Under the pieces are notes generated by a model. It saw nothing but the letters and a program-made list of their open reading frames with translations, was not told the origin of the DNA and searched no databases. From Bacilli bacterium (GTDB lineage Bacteria > Bacillota_I > Bacilli_A > ML615J-28 > CAG-313): a stretch of 64,000 nucleotides of DNA. Positions 58,634 through 64,000 of the stretch are shown here, one piece after another. Where the stretch lies: the NCBI GenBank assembly GCA_017501465.1, contig JAFVWY010000009.1, positions 179,092 to 243,091 on the forward strand, in the 5' to 3' direction. The first letter of the stretch is position 1. Each line of letters opens with the position of its first letter. A program made the position numbers and the translations under genes.

Positions 58634-58716
58634 GCGGGTGTGGCGGAACTGGCAGACGCGCTAGACTTAGGATCTAGTTCCTTGGAGTGCAGGTTCGATT
58701 CCTGTCACCCGCACCA
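58634..58716 (+). tRNA. tRNA-Leu (anticodon TAG)
   Basis: Cloverleaf with acceptor GCGGGTG/CACCCGC, anticodon stem CTAGA/TCTAG with loop CTTAGGA, a long variable arm as expected for leucine, T-loop GGTTCGATTCC and encoded CCA. Confidence 0.95.
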
Positions 58717-58731
58717 TCTCATATGCTATTT

Positions 58732-58807
58732 GGTCCCATGGTGTAGTGGTTAACATGCCAGTCTGTCACACTGGAGATCGCGAGTTCAAGTCTCGTTGGG
58801 ACCGCCA
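58732..58807 (+). tRNA. tRNA-Asp (anticodon GTC)
   Basis: Acceptor GGTCCCA/TGGGACC, anticodon stem CCAGT/ACTGG with loop CTGTCAC, T-arm GAGTTCAAGTCTC, discriminator G and encoded CCA. Confidence 0.95.
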
Positions 58808-58815
58808 TTCTTGAT

Positions 58816-58892
58816 GCGCCCATAGTTCAATTGGATAGAATACTTGACTACGGATCAAGGGGTTAGGGGTTCGAATCCTCTTGGGCGCGCCA
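58816..58892 (+). tRNA. tRNA-Arg (anticodon ACG)
   Basis: Acceptor GCGCCCA/TGGGCGC, anticodon stem CTTGA/TCAAG with loop CTACGGA, T-arm GGGGTTCGAATCCTC, encoded CCA. A34 would be read as inosine after TadA editing. Confidence 0.95.
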
Positions 58893-58918
58893 TGTTATTA
58901 CAATTTAATCTTATTAAT

Positions 58919-58995
58919 CGGGAAATAGCTCAGCTTGGTAGAGCGCTTGGTTTGGGACCAAGATGTCGCAGGTTCGAATCCTGTTTTCCCGACCA
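58919..58995 (+). tRNA. tRNA-Pro (anticodon TGG)
   Basis: Acceptor CGGGAAA/TTTCCCG, anticodon stem CTTGG/CCAAG with loop TTTGGGA, T-arm CAGGTTCGAATCCTG, encoded CCA. Confidence 0.95.
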
Positions 58996-58998
58996 TTT

Positions 58999-59072
58999 GC
59001 GGGTGTAGTTCAACGGCAGAACCTCAGCCTTCCAAGCTGACTACGTGGGTTCGATTCCCATCACTCGCTCCA
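58999..59072 (+). tRNA. tRNA-Gly (anticodon TCC)
   Basis: Acceptor GCGGGTG/CACTCGC with one G-U pair, anticodon stem TCAGC/GCTGA with loop CTTCCAA, T-arm GGGTTCGATTCCC, encoded CCA. It is the last tRNA of the cluster, and the 245-bp repeat begins at its CCA end. Confidence 0.95.
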
Positions 59073-59315
59073 TTTTTTGAAATCTATAGGTCTTCTGAAT
59101 TGAGGATCTTTTTTTAATTTTTAAGGACTATTTTGCTTGAAATATAGTGAAATAGTCTCTTTTTTTACCTGTTTATGAAACATTTAGATTTAAAGACTAG
59201 GTGAGACTGACCACGGACTCGAACCATTAACTTACGGGATTCGAATGTTAGGTTCTGATGGGACTCGAACCTATAAGAGATAATGGTGGAAATAAATTTA
59301 TAAATAGCATATAAT
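59071..59315 (+). repeat. 245-bp boundary repeat, copy A
   Basis: This copy starts at the CCA end of tRNA-Gly and recurs at 62051-62294. In order it holds hairpin 1 (GGTCTTC/GAGGATC, 59089-59107, then T-run), hairpin 2 (GACTATTTT/GAAATAGTC, 59126-59157, then T-run), a core identical between copies (from 59172), three antisense T-arm-like motifs (59215-59225, 59236-59246, 59260-59271) and a TGGAAA-17-TATAAT promoter (59287-59315). The first hairpin also ends the tRNA operon. No gene is seen in the roughly 365 bp between tRNA-Gly and the XRE regulator. Confidence 0.85.
59287..59315 (+). promoter_or_regulatory. Promoter at the end of repeat copy A
   Basis: TGGAAA (59287-59292), 17-bp spacer and TATAAT (59310-59315), in the same place as in copy B. 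Confidence 0.55.
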
Positions 59316-59385
59316 ATAATTAGAATCTCGCTTGTATAGAATATATCTCTACAAATGGGGTATGGATTAAACATTGATTAGTTAG

Positions 59386-59409: not shown

Positions 59410-59436
59410 TATATGCAAAAAAGGAGAATAATTTAT

Positions 59437-60513
59437 ATGAATATAGGTTTAAAAATTAAACAGTTACGAAGAGAAAGAAACATTACTCAAGAAGAATTAG
59501 GTGAATTGGTTGGTTTAACAGCAAAGGCGATTTCTAGATGGGAAAATTCAGCATCATATCCTGATATTACATTATTACCGATTCTTGCAAATATTTTTGA
59601 AATAACTGTGGATGAATTACTTGATGTAGATATTTATAAAAAGGAACAAGAAATTAAAGAGATTCTTGAAGAAAATCACAAATATAAACATTTAGGTGAA
59701 GTAGAAAAATCTATAGAATTATTAAGAAACGCACTTTTGAAATATCCTAATAATTATAAAATTATGGAGGAGTTAGCAAGCTCTTTACATGGATTTTTCT
59801 ATGCCCAATACCCAAATAGAGTTGATGCATTAGATGAAATGATAACACTGTCTGAAAAAATATTAGAAAAGTGTATTGACGACGAATTAAGACATCACGC
59901 AATCCAAATATTAGTGCATGGTTATACTGAAAAAGGAGAAGTGGAAAAAGCCAAACAATTAGCTCTAAAGATGCCTGTATTTTATTGTTGTAGAAATGTT
60001 TTATTAGAAGATGTTTATAAAGGTGAAGAACTAGAAAAACATGTTAAGAGAAATGTTATTCTAATAACAGAGTGGTTCCAAGATGAAATATTAGTTTTGT
60101 CTCAAAATGTAGACGAAGAAACAAATATAAAACTTAGAATGAAATACATTGATTTAATGAAATTTGTATTTGAAAGTGATAATTGCGGATTCTATAATGA
60201 AAGAATATATAGAGCATATTTCAATATAGCGTTAAGTTATGCAAAACTTGATGATGTGGAAAATGCAATAGAAAATTTAATTAAATGTATTAAATCGGCA
60301 ATACTATTTGAGAAGAATGATAAAGTAAAATTAAATTCATTACTTTTAGATGGATTAGTAGTAGATAAAAACGAAACAACTTCTAATATGGCTATTAGTA
60401 CTTATCAAAGGATATATGATTGGGTAAATTCAAAATATTTTGATAAAGTTAGAAACAATTATAGTTTTAAAGAAGTTGAAAATTTATTAAATCAGTTAAA
60501 TAAAATATCTTAA
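59437..60513 (+). CDS. XRE-family HTH regulator with TPR-like C-terminal domain
   Basis: AAAGGAG points to the ATG at 59437, not the upstream ATG at 59413 (358 residues). Residues 1-60 are a Cro/CI-type helix-turn-helix ('IKQLRRERNITQEELGELVG', 'ISRWENSASYPD'). Residues about 75-350 are helical with TPR-like repeats ('KSIELLRNALLKYPNNYKIM', 'YTEKGEVEKAKQLAL'), as in peptide- or stress-responsive Firmicute regulators. It probably controls its own gene through the 14-bp palindrome, and may control the ATPase gene downstream, which has a separate promoter. Confidence 0.82.
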   Translation: MNIGLKIKQLRRERNITQEELGELVGLTAKAISRWENSASYPDITLLPILANIFEITVDELLDVDIYKKEQEIKEILEENHKYKHLGEVEKSIELLRNALLKYPNNYKIMEELASSLHGFFYAQYPNRVDALDEMITLSEKILEKCIDDELRHHAIQILVHGYTEKGEVEKAKQLALKMPVFYCCRNVLLEDVYKGEELEKHVKRNVILITEWFQDEILVLSQNVDEETNIKLRMKYIDLMKFVFESDNCGFYNERIYRAYFNIALSYAKLDDVENAIENLIKCIKSAILFEKNDKVKLNSLLLDGLVVDKNETTSNMAISTYQRIYDWVNSKYFDKVRNNYSFKEVENLLNQLNKIS

Positions 60514-60567
60514 TACAATAGTTTATAATATTTTTGTTATAAATTACGACTTTAAAATAACACCAAT

Positions 60568-60622
60568 ACCTTGCAACAAAATGCCTCAAAACCTTGCAAC
60601 AAAATAACTCAAATGCTTGCAA
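60568..60622 (+). repeat. 23-bp direct repeats leading into the ATPase promoter
   Basis: Two full units (60568-60590 and 60591-60613; 19 of 23 bases or more equal) and the start of a third bring TTGCAA to 60571, 60594 and 60617, exactly 23 bp apart. The third TTGCAA is also the -35 box of the promoter that follows. Confidence 0.75.
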
Positions 60623-60645
60623 TTTAAATTAAATTATTGTATAAT
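60617..60645 (+). promoter_or_regulatory. Promoter of the DUF4143 ATPase gene
   Basis: TTGCAA (60617-60622), 17-bp spacer, TATAAT (60640-60645). Confidence 0.75.
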
Positions 60646-60661
60646 TAAGTTGGTGATAAAA

Positions 60662-61942
60662 ATGAATTATAAGAAAAGAATAGCTGATAAAATATTAAAA
60701 GAGAAATTGGAAAGTTTTGGTGGTGTATTAATAGTTGGTCCAAAAGGATGTGGCAAAACTACAACAGCAAAATACTTTTCAAAAAGTTTCATTGAATTTC
60801 AGGATGAAGAAAATAGAGATAAATATTTGATGGTTGCTCAAACAAGTCCGAGTAAATTATTAATAGGAGAAAAGCCAAGGTTATTTGATGAATGGCAAGA
60901 TGCTCCAAAAATTTGGGGAGCTATTAGAAAATCAATTGATGATGAGCAAAAAACAGGATTATATATTCTAACTGGTTCTTCATCTAAAGATGTAAAGACA
61001 CCACATACTGGAACAATGAGAATCAGTAGAATGAAGATGTTACCACTCAGTTTGTATGAGTCAGAAGAATCAAATGGCGAAATTTCTTTAATTGAGTTGT
61101 TTAATAATCCTAATATGTTTGATGGATGTATTTCTGACCTAGATATTGATGGATTAATTAATGCTATTTGTCGTGGTGGTTGGCCGAGTTGTTTTAAAAT
61201 AAAAAAAGAAATTTTAAAGTTAAATGTTGCCAAGGATTTATTTTACCAAACTGCCCATGTGGATGCTTCAAGCATTGATGATGTAAAAAGAAATCCTATA
61301 TGGATGGAAACAATAATGAAATCATATGCAAGAAATCTATGTACTTTAAGTACAAATCAAACAATATATAAAGATGTAATAGCAAACTGTGAATTGTCTG
61401 AACGTACATTTAATGATTATTTATCAGTATTAGAAAAATTATATATAATAGAAGATATTGATGCATGGTGTCCTGCGATTAGATCTAAAACTTCTATTCG
61501 TTCTAGTAAAAAAAGAAATTTTATTGATCCTTCTATTGCTGTTGCAGCACTTGGTATTTCTCCAGAATATTTTAATTTGGATTTTAAAACATTAGGGTTT
61601 TTATTTGAGTCATTAGTTATTAGAGATTTAAAGATTTATTCTCAAACTTTTGATGGTAAAGTTTCTTATTATAGAGATAGATATGGATTAGAAGCTGATT
61701 GTGTTCTTCATCTTAATGATGGACGATACGCATTAATAGAAATTAAACTTGGCAGTAATGAAATTGAACTAGGTGCAAAACATTTAAACGAAATAGAGAA
61801 ATTAGTCAGAGAATATAACGAACATGAAAAACAATGCCCATTAAGATTACCAGATTTAAAAATAGTAATTACAGGTGGACAATATGGTTATAAACGTGAA
61901 GATGGTGTTTTTGTAATACCTATTGGTTGTTTAAAAAATTAA
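60662..61942 (+). CDS. AAA ATPase with DUF4143 and nuclease-like C-terminal domain
   Basis: GGTGATAAAA leads to the ATG at 60662 (426 residues; the frame is open upstream). Walker A 'VGPKGCGKTTTAKYF' (about 24-38), Walker B 'RLFDEWQDAPKIW' and the sensor 'LYILTGSSS' define the archaeal-ATPase-like AAA domain. The DUF4143 part has a winged-helix section ('ERTFNDYLSVLEKLYIIEDI') and then 'YYRDRYGLEADCVLHL' and 'YALIEIKLGS', the D..ExK pattern of a PD-(D/E)XK fold. Such proteins are common and scattered in genomes; some may act in toxin or defence modules, but the function is not established. It ends just before repeat copy B. Confidence 0.88.
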   Translation: MNYKKRIADKILKEKLESFGGVLIVGPKGCGKTTTAKYFSKSFIEFQDEENRDKYLMVAQTSPSKLLIGEKPRLFDEWQDAPKIWGAIRKSIDDEQKTGLYILTGSSSKDVKTPHTGTMRISRMKMLPLSLYESEESNGEISLIELFNNPNMFDGCISDLDIDGLINAICRGGWPSCFKIKKEILKLNVAKDLFYQTAHVDASSIDDVKRNPIWMETIMKSYARNLCTLSTNQTIYKDVIANCELSERTFNDYLSVLEKLYIIEDIDAWCPAIRSKTSIRSSKKRNFIDPSIAVAALGISPEYFNLDFKTLGFLFESLVIRDLKIYSQTFDGKVSYYRDRYGLEADCVLHLNDGRYALIEIKLGSNEIELGAKHLNEIEKLVREYNEHEKQCPLRLPDLKIVITGGQYGYKREDGVFVIPIGCLKN

Positions 61943-61995
61943 CCACATTTATTGTATTATTAATATAATTTAGTCATTACTGCTAAAAGTTGCGT

Positions 61996-62043
61996 CGTGA
62001 AACATATTGTAGTGTAAAAGCTTAAAATGAAACATTTGGTAGT
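61996..62043 (+). repeat. Short direct repeats between ATPase and copy B
   Basis: CGTGAAACATATTGTAGT (61996-62013) and AATGAAACATTTGGTAGT (62026-62043) are 30 bp apart and similar; GTCATTACT (61973-61981) and AGTAATGAC (62041-62049) form a 9-bp inverted pair around them. Confidence 0.5.
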
Positions 62044-62050
62044 AATGACA

Positions 62051-62294
62051 CATTTTCTGAAATCTATTAGTCTTCTGAATATGAAGGCTAATTTTTATTT
62101 TTATAGGGTATTTTAGCTAGTTTTAGTTAGAATACCTTATTTTTTATACATTTATGAAACATTTAGATTTAAAGACCTAAGGAGACTGACCACGGACTCG
62201 AACCATTGTTTTATGGGATTCGAATGTTAGGTTCTGATGGGACTCGAACCAATAAGAGATAAATATGGAAAATATTTGATAATTGTGATATAAT
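62051..62294 (+). repeat. 245-bp boundary repeat, copy B
   Basis: The same order of parts as in copy A: hairpin 1 (TAGTCTTC/GAAGGCTA, 62068-62090), hairpin 2 (13 bp, 62107-62136), the core (from 62151), T-arm-like motifs (62194-62204, 62215-62225, 62239-62250) and a TGGAAA-17-TATAAT promoter (62266-62294). The hairpin stems differ in sequence from copy A but still pair. No gene is seen in the 370 bp between the ATPase and the next ORF; all of it is repeat sequence. Confidence 0.85.
62266..62294 (+). promoter_or_regulatory. Promoter at the end of repeat copy B
   Basis: TGGAAA (62266-62271), 17-bp spacer, TATAAT (62289-62294), 18 bp before the start codon at 62313. Confidence 0.6.
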
Positions 62295-62312
62295 AAAATA
62301 TGGAGATTTGCT

Positions 62313-64000
62313 ATGAAAATAAAAAAATATATTATTGAGAATAAAAAATATATGAATGAGTGGTTGTATGAAAAAAATGTAAATTTCGATCCGAATTTAT
62401 TGACTTATGGTAGCAATCAGAAAGTTTGGTGGAAATGTGAAAAAGGACATATTTGGGAAGATACAATTTCTCATAGAACTCGCGGAAGAAATTGTCCATA
62501 TTGTTCAAATCATCGATTATTAAAAGGTTTTAACGATTTTGAAACTATAGCTCCTCATTTAATACAGGAATGGAATTATGATAAAAATATTATTATGCCT
62601 TATGAGATTTTTCCGCATAGTAATAAAAAAGTATGGTGGAAGTGTGAAAAAGGACACGAGTGGGAAGATACACCTAATCATCGTGTTAGTAGAGATAATA
62701 ATTGTCCATATTGTTCAAATATTAAATTGCTTAAAGGATATAACGATTTAGCAACCATTAATCCTGAAATATCTGAAGAATGGAATTACCAGTTAAATGG
62801 AAATTTAAAACCCGATGAAGTTATTTTTTGTAGTAGTAGAAAAGTATGGTGGAAGTGTGAAGCAGGCCATACATGGGAAGCAATGATTAGAACTAGGAAT
62901 TTAGGTGCTAGATGTCCAATTTGTAAAAGGGAACTTCAAACTTCATATCCTGAGCAAACATTATATTTTTATATTAAAAAAATATTTCCAAATACAATTA
63001 ATAGATATAAAGAAAAAAAGTTTGAATTAGATGTATATATTCCTGATTTAAAATTAGGTATTGAATATGATGGTGCTCGTTATCATAATGAAAAAACTTA
63101 TTTCAAAGAGATAGAAAAGGATGAATATTATAGTAAAAAAAATATCAGAGTTATTAGAATAAAAGAGGATTTTAAAAAAGAAACTATTGATTCACAAAAC
63201 AATGTAATTTATTATTCACCTATTAGTAATTATAAAAATTTAGATGAATTAGTTAACTATTTATTTAATTATATAAATAGTCAATTTAAAATAAATATTA
63301 ATATTCCATACATAAATCATACAAAGGATAGTACTAAAATATATTCATTATATTTATCATATATAAAAGAAAATTCGATTATGAACGATTACAAGCTTTC
63401 GTCAGAATGGAATTATCAAAAGAATGGCAATTTGAATCCTTGGTATATTACAATAAATTCAGGAAAAAAGGTATGGTGGCAATGCGATAAAGGTCATGAA
63501 TGGCAAGCAGTTGTATCTAGTAGACATAAACATAGTTGTCCAGTCTGTTCTAATCAATTAGTTTTAAAAGGATTTAATGATTTACAATCAAAATATCCAA
63601 AATTGATTGAAGAATGGAACAAAACAAAAAATATTAATATAACTCCTGATATGATTGTGCCGGGTACAAATAAAAAAGTGTGGTGGATGTGTTCGAAAGG
63701 TCATGAATGGCAAGCAGCTGTTTCAAGTAGAATAAAAGGAATTGGGTGCCCTTATTGTACAAGACAAAAAGCAATTGTAGGAGAAAATGATCTGAAAACA
63801 TTAAAACCAATGCTAGTATCTGAATGGGATTATGAACAAAACGGAAATTTGTTACCAGAATTTGTAACTATAGGATCAGGAAGAAAAGTATGGTGGAAAT
63901 GTTCTAAAGGACATACATGGCAAGCAATAATAAAAAATAGAGTTGCAGGAATGGGTTGTCCTATATGTTATTCAAAAGAAAAAGGGAAATCACTTGAAAA
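62313..64000 (+). CDS. DUF4379-type zinc-ribbon repeat protein with internal PD-(D/E)XK nuclease-like domain (3' end outside window)
   Basis: The frame is open from the ATG at 62313 (GGAG 8 bp upstream) to the window end: 562 residues, incomplete. It has at least six ~70-residue units, each with 'VWW(K/Q/M)C..GH.W' and then 'CP.C' (near residues 37, 106, 176, 384, 455 and 527). These are the probable zinc-ribbon repeats of DUF4379. Between units 3 and 4 (about 208-290), 'YPEQTLYFYIKKIFP', 'KKFELDVYIPDLKLGIEYDG' and 'IRVIRIKED' match the Vsr/DUF559-like nuclease fold, with Glu, Asp and Glu in place. A DNA- or RNA-binding endonuclease, perhaps in defence, is inferred. Confidence 0.82.
   Translation, partial: MKIKKYIIENKKYMNEWLYEKNVNFDPNLLTYGSNQKVWWKCEKGHIWEDTISHRTRGRNCPYCSNHRLLKGFNDFETIAPHLIQEWNYDKNIIMPYEIFPHSNKKVWWKCEKGHEWEDTPNHRVSRDNNCPYCSNIKLLKGYNDLATINPEISEEWNYQLNGNLKPDEVIFCSSRKVWWKCEAGHTWEAMIRTRNLGARCPICKRELQTSYPEQTLYFYIKKIFPNTINRYKEKKFELDVYIPDLKLGIEYDGARYHNEKTYFKEIEKDEYYSKKNIRVIRIKEDFKKETIDSQNNVIYYSPISNYKNLDELVNYLFNYINSQFKININIPYINHTKDSTKIYSLYLSYIKENSIMNDYKLSSEWNYQKNGNLNPWYITINSGKKVWWQCDKGHEWQAVVSSRHKHSCPVCSNQLVLKGFNDLQSKYPKLIEEWNKTKNINITPDMIVPGTNKKVWWMCSKGHEWQAAVSSRIKGIGCPYCTRQKAIVGENDLKTLKPMLVSEWDYEQNGNLLPEFVTIGSGRKVWWKCSKGHTWQAIIKNRVAGMGCPICYSKEKGKSLE

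Follow-up and report, generated by a model that had tools for sequence, protein, structure and literature searches.

A DUF4379-flanked EDxHD/Vsr-class nuclease gene, probably of the homing type, in a repeat-bounded cassette of a gut bacterium

Downstream of a tRNA cluster in a gut bacterium lies a gene whose product sets a nuclease-like domain between two arrays of zinc modules, and this arrangement raises the question of what such a protein would cut and for whose benefit. We examined the gene in a window of 64,000 nucleotides (the whole stretch of DNA that was analysed, whose coordinates are used below). The open reading frame starts with an ATG at 62313 and is still open at the window end. 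When the assembly was read beyond position 64000, a stop was found 193 bases past the window, about 0.8 kb before the contig ends, and the complete frame proved intact, encoding 626 aa without internal stop. The preliminary description had counted three units, a nuclease and at least three further units; the full protein has exactly three modules on either side of the nuclease, followed by a NUMOD-like tail of about 65 residues. Its parts are as follows.

62313..64000 in the window, stop at equivalent position 64193, + strand: DUF4379-nuclease-DUF4379 gene, 626 aa (assembly)
62427..62504, + strand: DUF4379 module 1, zinc core, residues 39-64 (Pfam match, ligand check)
62634..62714, + strand: DUF4379 module 2, zinc core, residues 108-134 (Pfam match, ligand check)
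62847..62924, + strand: DUF4379 module 3, zinc core, residues 179-204 (Pfam match, ligand check)
62928..63182, + strand: EDxHD/Vsr-type PD-(D/E)XK nuclease domain, residues 206-290 (profile, AlphaFold, Foldseek)
63234..63371, + strand: helical linker of two helices behind the nuclease, residues ~308-353 (predicted models)
63474..63548, + strand: DUF4379 module 4, zinc core, residues 388-412 (Pfam match, ligand check)
63681..63758, + strand: DUF4379 module 5, zinc core, residues 457-482 (Pfam match, ligand check)
63891..63968, + strand: DUF4379 module 6, zinc core, residues 527-552 (Pfam match, ligand check)
after module 6, mostly beyond the window, + strand: NUMOD-like tail, residues ~560-626 (profile comparison)

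Pfam returned six matches to DUF4379 (PF14311), a family of treble-clef CxxxH...CPxC modules, with an E value of 1.2e-112 that is far past chance and a score of 368 bits against a cut-off of 24.5. The zinc ligands of the W-W-x-C-x-x-G-H-x-W...C-P-x-C cores are intact in all six modules, which are spaced 69-71 residues apart inside each arm. The full-length model (pLDDT 88, pTM 0.55) is a string of well-folded modules whose mutual placement is uncertain. Chains named DUF4379 by their depositors, namely mS66, mt-SAF33 and a large-subunit assembly protein of the trypanosome mitoribosome, have solved structures (E 1e-12 to 1e-15), which suggests that the module is a nucleic-acid-associated fold. 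These proteins share the modules with the window protein but are ribosome parts with no nuclease domain evident. The corresponding PDB chains are 6yxx_E2, 7aor_at and 6sga_Fd.

The central domain had been described as a Vsr/DUF559-like PD-(D/E)XK nuclease, and both its profile and a confident fold place it in the Vsr/EDxHD type. AlphaFold2, run on an alignment of 85 relatives, gave a pLDDT of 90.4 for this domain and a helix-strand-strand-strand-helix-strand order. Residues E214, D240, E251, H258 and K269 (full-protein numbering), together with one serine and one glycine, are invariant in that alignment, and the five named are the predicted active-site residues. The top PDB sequence match of the nuclease profile was 3r3p, the catalytic domain of the EDxHD homing endonuclease I-Bth0305I, with an E value of 2.1e-4 for the 85-sequence profile and 0.018 for one built from 7 sequences; Foldseek with the predicted model also ranked 3r3p first (E 5e-3, prob 1.00), while Vsr (1cw0) was a weak fold match. 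Searched against a viral fold library, the same model retrieved phage endonucleases, including a treble-clef protein of a Listeria phage and annotated homing endonucleases. The earlier proposal of a modular nucleic-acid reader built around a single nuclease is thus far a plausible prediction.

The C-terminal tail may point in the same direction. A Pfam search with the tail of the window protein gave no match of its own, and hhalign, comparing a profile of this tail and three similar ones with NUMOD-type tails, returned a probability of 94.8. Two relatives (L049 and L055) carry a C-terminal NUMOD1 (E up to 9.5e-18) and I-HmuI-NUMOD above cut-off, and two more (L026/L027) end in I-HmuI-NUMOD. 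NUMOD1 is a hallmark of homing endonucleases. The NUMOD homing endonucleases of the I-HmuI type share these C-terminal domains with the relatives, and the window protein has its NUMOD-like tail, but they have an HNH nuclease in place of EDxHD and lack DUF4379 arrays.

A close parallel has been published. In four phage group II introns the encoded protein has three to five modules akin to CapR, DUF4379 and DUF723 ahead of an EDxHD/Vsr-like nuclease; these proteins were proposed to be homing endonucleases, and thousands of unannotated relatives were noted (PMC12350094, NAR 2025). The statement that target and activity of DUF4379 proteins are not established is therefore partly outdated, given this assignment and the solved mitoribosome structures. 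The group I/II intron proteins and the window protein have in common zinc modules of ~60-70 aa, akin to CapR/DUF4379, joined to an EDxHD/Vsr nuclease, and a proposed homing function with modular DNA binding. In the former the nuclease is C-terminal and the gene intronic. The window protein is a variant of this type in which modules surround a nuclease in mid-protein, and its gene stands free in the chromosome of a bacterium, within a repeat-bounded cassette. EDxHD enzymes with elongated DNA-binding regions have been reviewed, among them I-Bth0305I with a target of nearly 60 bp (PMC3943268). The window protein resembles I-Bth0305I in nuclease fold and motif arrangement, and as a long multi-domain protein is likewise expected to contact a long target; it differs in that the nucleases are ~20% identical, the DNA-binding parts are of another kind and I-Bth0305I is intron-encoded.

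We consider it reasonably likely that the window gene encodes a homing-type EDxHD/Vsr-class endonuclease and is a mobile single-gene element, parked in a cassette in this genome. Both three-module zinc arms and the NUMOD-like tail would follow the DNA on either side of the position cut and recognise a long sequence. The central domain, to judge from its fold and the invariant residues, would cut both strands with a metal held by some of the five residues named above. An empty site cut in this manner would be mended by the cell's own break repair, which could copy the gene in. Since DUF4379 is a widespread label of unknown function, placing the nuclease fusions among homing endonucleases would suggest a testable activity for thousands of hypothetical proteins and would explain the presence of these fusions at tRNA genes and in defence islands. 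Moreover, the modules, six here and up to 13 per protein in relatives, could represent a new kind of modular DNA reader.

The claim that the gene sits in accessory DNA behind a boundary repeat is supported, and the distribution of relatives is sporadic. Of 60 relatives of the window genome, a count that includes this genome, only 4 have a match, and close relatives of the nuclease domain are encoded in 230 genome stretches; the best 80 of these 230 loci come chiefly from gut Bacillota, with others from Bacteroidota, Saccharibacteria, Alphaproteobacteria, Elusimicrobia and further groups. Nearly all cellular members have modules on both sides of the nuclease, 1-6 before and 0-9 after it. On a quick tree of the nuclease domain with weak support, the label Bacillota takes 8 changes, near the number after shuffling (mean 9.6; 33 of 500 shuffles as low), which suggests that the tree mostly disregards phylum. 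The dN/dS ratio among relatives (0.11-0.18) indicates strong purifying selection, from which it follows that the proteins are functional. Relatives also occur on plasmids and in phages, and the viral ones carry homing endonuclease annotation; in Sporosarcina phage Lietuvens a DUF4379 gene is flanked by helicase and primase. Two different DUF4379 nuclease genes stand in tandem, 25-66 bp apart, at L084:5588-9662 and L099:2587-6312.

Comparison of related loci showed that cellular relatives behave as one-gene mobile units lodged at conserved sites, among them the 3' ends of tRNA, tmRNA and guaA genes. The clearest insertion is at a tmRNA. In one genome (L232) the site is empty, the tmRNA end ...GGTCCACCA being followed by AAAGTTCTGCCGC. 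In a related species whose site is occupied (L055), the flank, 91% identical over 170 bp, lies ~2.0 kb away from the tmRNA, and the insertion of ~2.0 kb, exactly at the tmRNA 3' end, consists of the DUF4379 nuclease gene alone and terminates with TCCAC(C)A. A second comparison, of L073 with L227/L230, gave a right-hand junction matching that of the first. Our literature search found no paper on tmRNA insertion by this family; within tmRNA introns, only LAGLIDADG genes have been reported (PMC11915505). At guaA, a nuclease gene and its downstream ORF are bracketed by the 3' end of guaA and a 78-bp duplicate of that end (L045/L051), and the nuclease genes are 96.9% identical against 82.6% for the guaA region. 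Similarly, the nuclease genes of L055 and L071 are 84.0% identical against 68.8% for the upstream core gene. Elsewhere, two loci (L099/L103) have a common stretch of 1,865 bp that is 99.3% identical in otherwise unrelated flanks and contains solely the DUF4379 nuclease gene and an 87-aa ORF; the loci were binned as different Bacillota groups, and bin contamination could alter these species labels but not the two contexts. Among 18 gene pairs more than 72% identical, homology clearly reaches far into both flanks only in L045/L051.

The surroundings of the genes show the same preference more broadly. Wherever a tRNA or tmRNA lies within ~2.6 kb, its 3' end is turned toward the nuclease gene (13 of 13 loci, binomial p 1e-4), and tRNA density is 0.045 per kb near the gene versus 0.018 further out (p 0.04); both p-values are optimistic, as some loci are close kin and three have one common tmRNA site. 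Direct repeats surround 11 of 61 nuclease genes versus 2 of 60 control genes (Fisher p 0.009). A far-side copy of the tRNA 3' end was seen in L055, L068 and L090, weakly in L060, and is absent from most loci. At L068:1232-6628, tRNA-Met is followed by integrase-less cassettes, each closed by a duplicate of the tRNA 3' end. Three genes (NERD, DUF4379 nuclease and Abi_alpha) make up the first of them, between tRNA-Met and such a duplicate. In the search for empty sites, the alcohol dehydrogenase neighbouring the L060 gene was not syntenic, no usable relatives turned up for L049, a presence/absence test in Listeria Pecentumviruses found the related gene in essentially all phages with no empty site seen, and for the window gene the search yielded no empty allele of its exact site. 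Hairpins beside tRNA-adjacent genes, considered as element ends, were rejected because they have the appearance of tRNA terminators. Movement into unrelated sites, as in L099/L103, goes beyond classical homing into a cognate allele, and the short flanking repeats suit insertions made by a recombinase equally well.

The gene had also been called typical of defence genes. The window protein matched none of the PADLOC models, and no conserved partner emerged when a recurrent partner gene was sought among the neighbours, so that this part of the claim found no support in that form; what did hold is that the neighbourhood is rich in defence genes. Next to the genes of 78 relatives lie, among others, Abi_alpha, SocA/Panacea, Schlafen AlbA_2, OLD-like ATPases, MvaI and SinI restriction-modification, HerA, a retron Ec107-like reverse transcriptase and several candidate systems. 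The 132 immediate neighbours matched 341 PADLOC families versus 33 for 118 genes of the same loci at a distance of more than 4.5 kb; this tally counts families rather than proteins, and since one methylase or ATPase matches 60-70 related models, it is a rough measure that gives the direction and not the size of the effect. At L063:5736-9125, a DUF4379 nuclease gene, which might be a retron effector, is preceded at 28 bp by an RVT_1 reverse transcriptase gene.

Since varied defence genes adjoin the relatives, defence stays a genuine alternative or an additional role. The protein could be a stand-alone nuclease against phages or other mobile elements, perhaps a homing endonuclease adopted by the host, whose zinc modules recognise conserved invader sequences and whose Vsr-like domain cuts them. 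The enriched neighbourhood, the strong purifying selection and the tandem pairs in L084 and L099 are in keeping with such a role. We nevertheless regard it as unlikely: besides the missing partner and PADLOC match, the neighbour count is inflated by multi-model matches, any type of mobile gene accumulates in defence islands, and phage genomes encode the same fold. Fold, NUMOD-like tail, phage relatives and single-gene mobility favour a homing endonuclease in the first place.

Homing and defence might also be combined in one enzyme. The 3' ends of tRNA, tmRNA and guaA genes are landing sites of genomic islands and prophages too. DUF4379-EDxHD genes could be autonomous one-gene mobile elements of bacterial chromosomes, specialised for these ends, that occupy the host's own site, cut intact copies of it on incoming elements and so guard the landing site. 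This proposal is quite doubtful; if true, it would directly link selfish DNA to immunity.

A Vsr-like accessory role beside cytosine-5 restriction-modification, acting on mismatches from deaminated 5-methylcytosine or on modified DNA, is very improbable. Vsr belongs to the same PD-(D/E)XK subgroup and is often found beside C5 methylases, and its fold does resemble that of the window nuclease, if weakly. Three relatives have such neighbours: one gene lies directly behind SinI and a C5 methylase (L027:1999-6130), another directly behind a C5 methylase and MvaI/BcnI (L048:4223-9545), and a C5 methylase is 1.2 kb from the gene of L046. These are, however, only 3 of ~84 loci, and no methylase partner was seen beside the window gene. 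Vsr is also a single small domain, and to our knowledge it comes without long DNA-reader arrays.

Action on RNA resembling tRNA or rRNA is suggested by mS66 and mt-SAF33, DUF4379 chains that are parts of mitoribosomes or of their assembly intermediates. The nuclease, however, belongs to a DNA-cleaving homing family and NUMODs bind DNA, which leaves this reading with slighter prospects still.

The setting of the gene in the window is seen from the array past the tRNA cluster, which runs R1, HTH-TPR regulator and AAA/DUF4143 ATPase, R2, DUF4379 nuclease and a 114-aa ORF, R3.

58634..59072, + strand: tRNA cluster Leu-Asp-Arg-Pro-Gly, with the cassette array beginning at its 3' end
59071..59320, + strand: boundary repeat R1, beginning at the tRNA-Gly 3' end, a related copy of R2
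59413..61942, + strand: neighbouring cassette between R1 and R2 (ORFs, PADLOC match)
59413-60513, + strand: HTH-TPR regulator of the neighbouring cassette
60617-61942, + strand: AAA/DUF4143 ATPase of the neighbouring cassette (PADLOC candidate PDC-S01, E 6e-52)
61970..62312, + strand: boundary repeat R2, directly upstream of the nuclease gene
62066-62092 and 62103-62140: terminator hairpins within R2
62266-62294: promoter-like site within R2 for the nuclease gene, TGGAAA-17-TATAAT

The boundary repeat proposed earlier is real: besides the copy at 61970-62312 there is a related one at 59071-59320 and a third 3' of the gene. Of 40 relatives of the window genome, 17 have the repeat, in up to 17 copies each. 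In these it starts at the 3' ends of tRNA clusters and delimits small cassettes that are exchanged and shared among genomes, with homology stopping at the repeats (L290/L291, 91% over 2.6 kb; L291/L294; L293/L021). At the orthologous tRNA cluster of one relative (G002, L289) the array is occupied by other genes. Nearly all of the repeat-bearing genomes lack the nuclease gene, and therefore the gene is here the cargo of a cassette and not its mover. On the homing reading, it would have turned into such cargo behind the tRNA cluster and may by now be dormant or have been co-opted there. That the nuclease itself moves these cassettes, as its place inside one and the repeat-flanked or tRNA-adjacent relatives in other taxa might suggest, is the least probable reading and was rejected for this repeat family, since genomes have the repeats without the nuclease gene and cassettes lacking it are exchanged as well.

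No recombinase common to the repeat-bounded arrays was identified, and an Rfam search of the boundary repeat returned nothing besides ordinary tRNAs. A serine resolvase gene is present in two arrays (L022 and L289). The repeat family, ~250-340 bp long and spread family- to order-wide, combines two terminators, a conserved block with tRNA T-arm-like motifs and a promoter (copies at 59071-59320 and 61970-62312 of the window, L002:3744-4087 and L289-L294). Some copies open with a short direct-repeat block (TGAAACATTTTGTAGTGTAAA...) that resembles the end of an insertion element, as at 61970-62060 of the window and L022:5350-5457.
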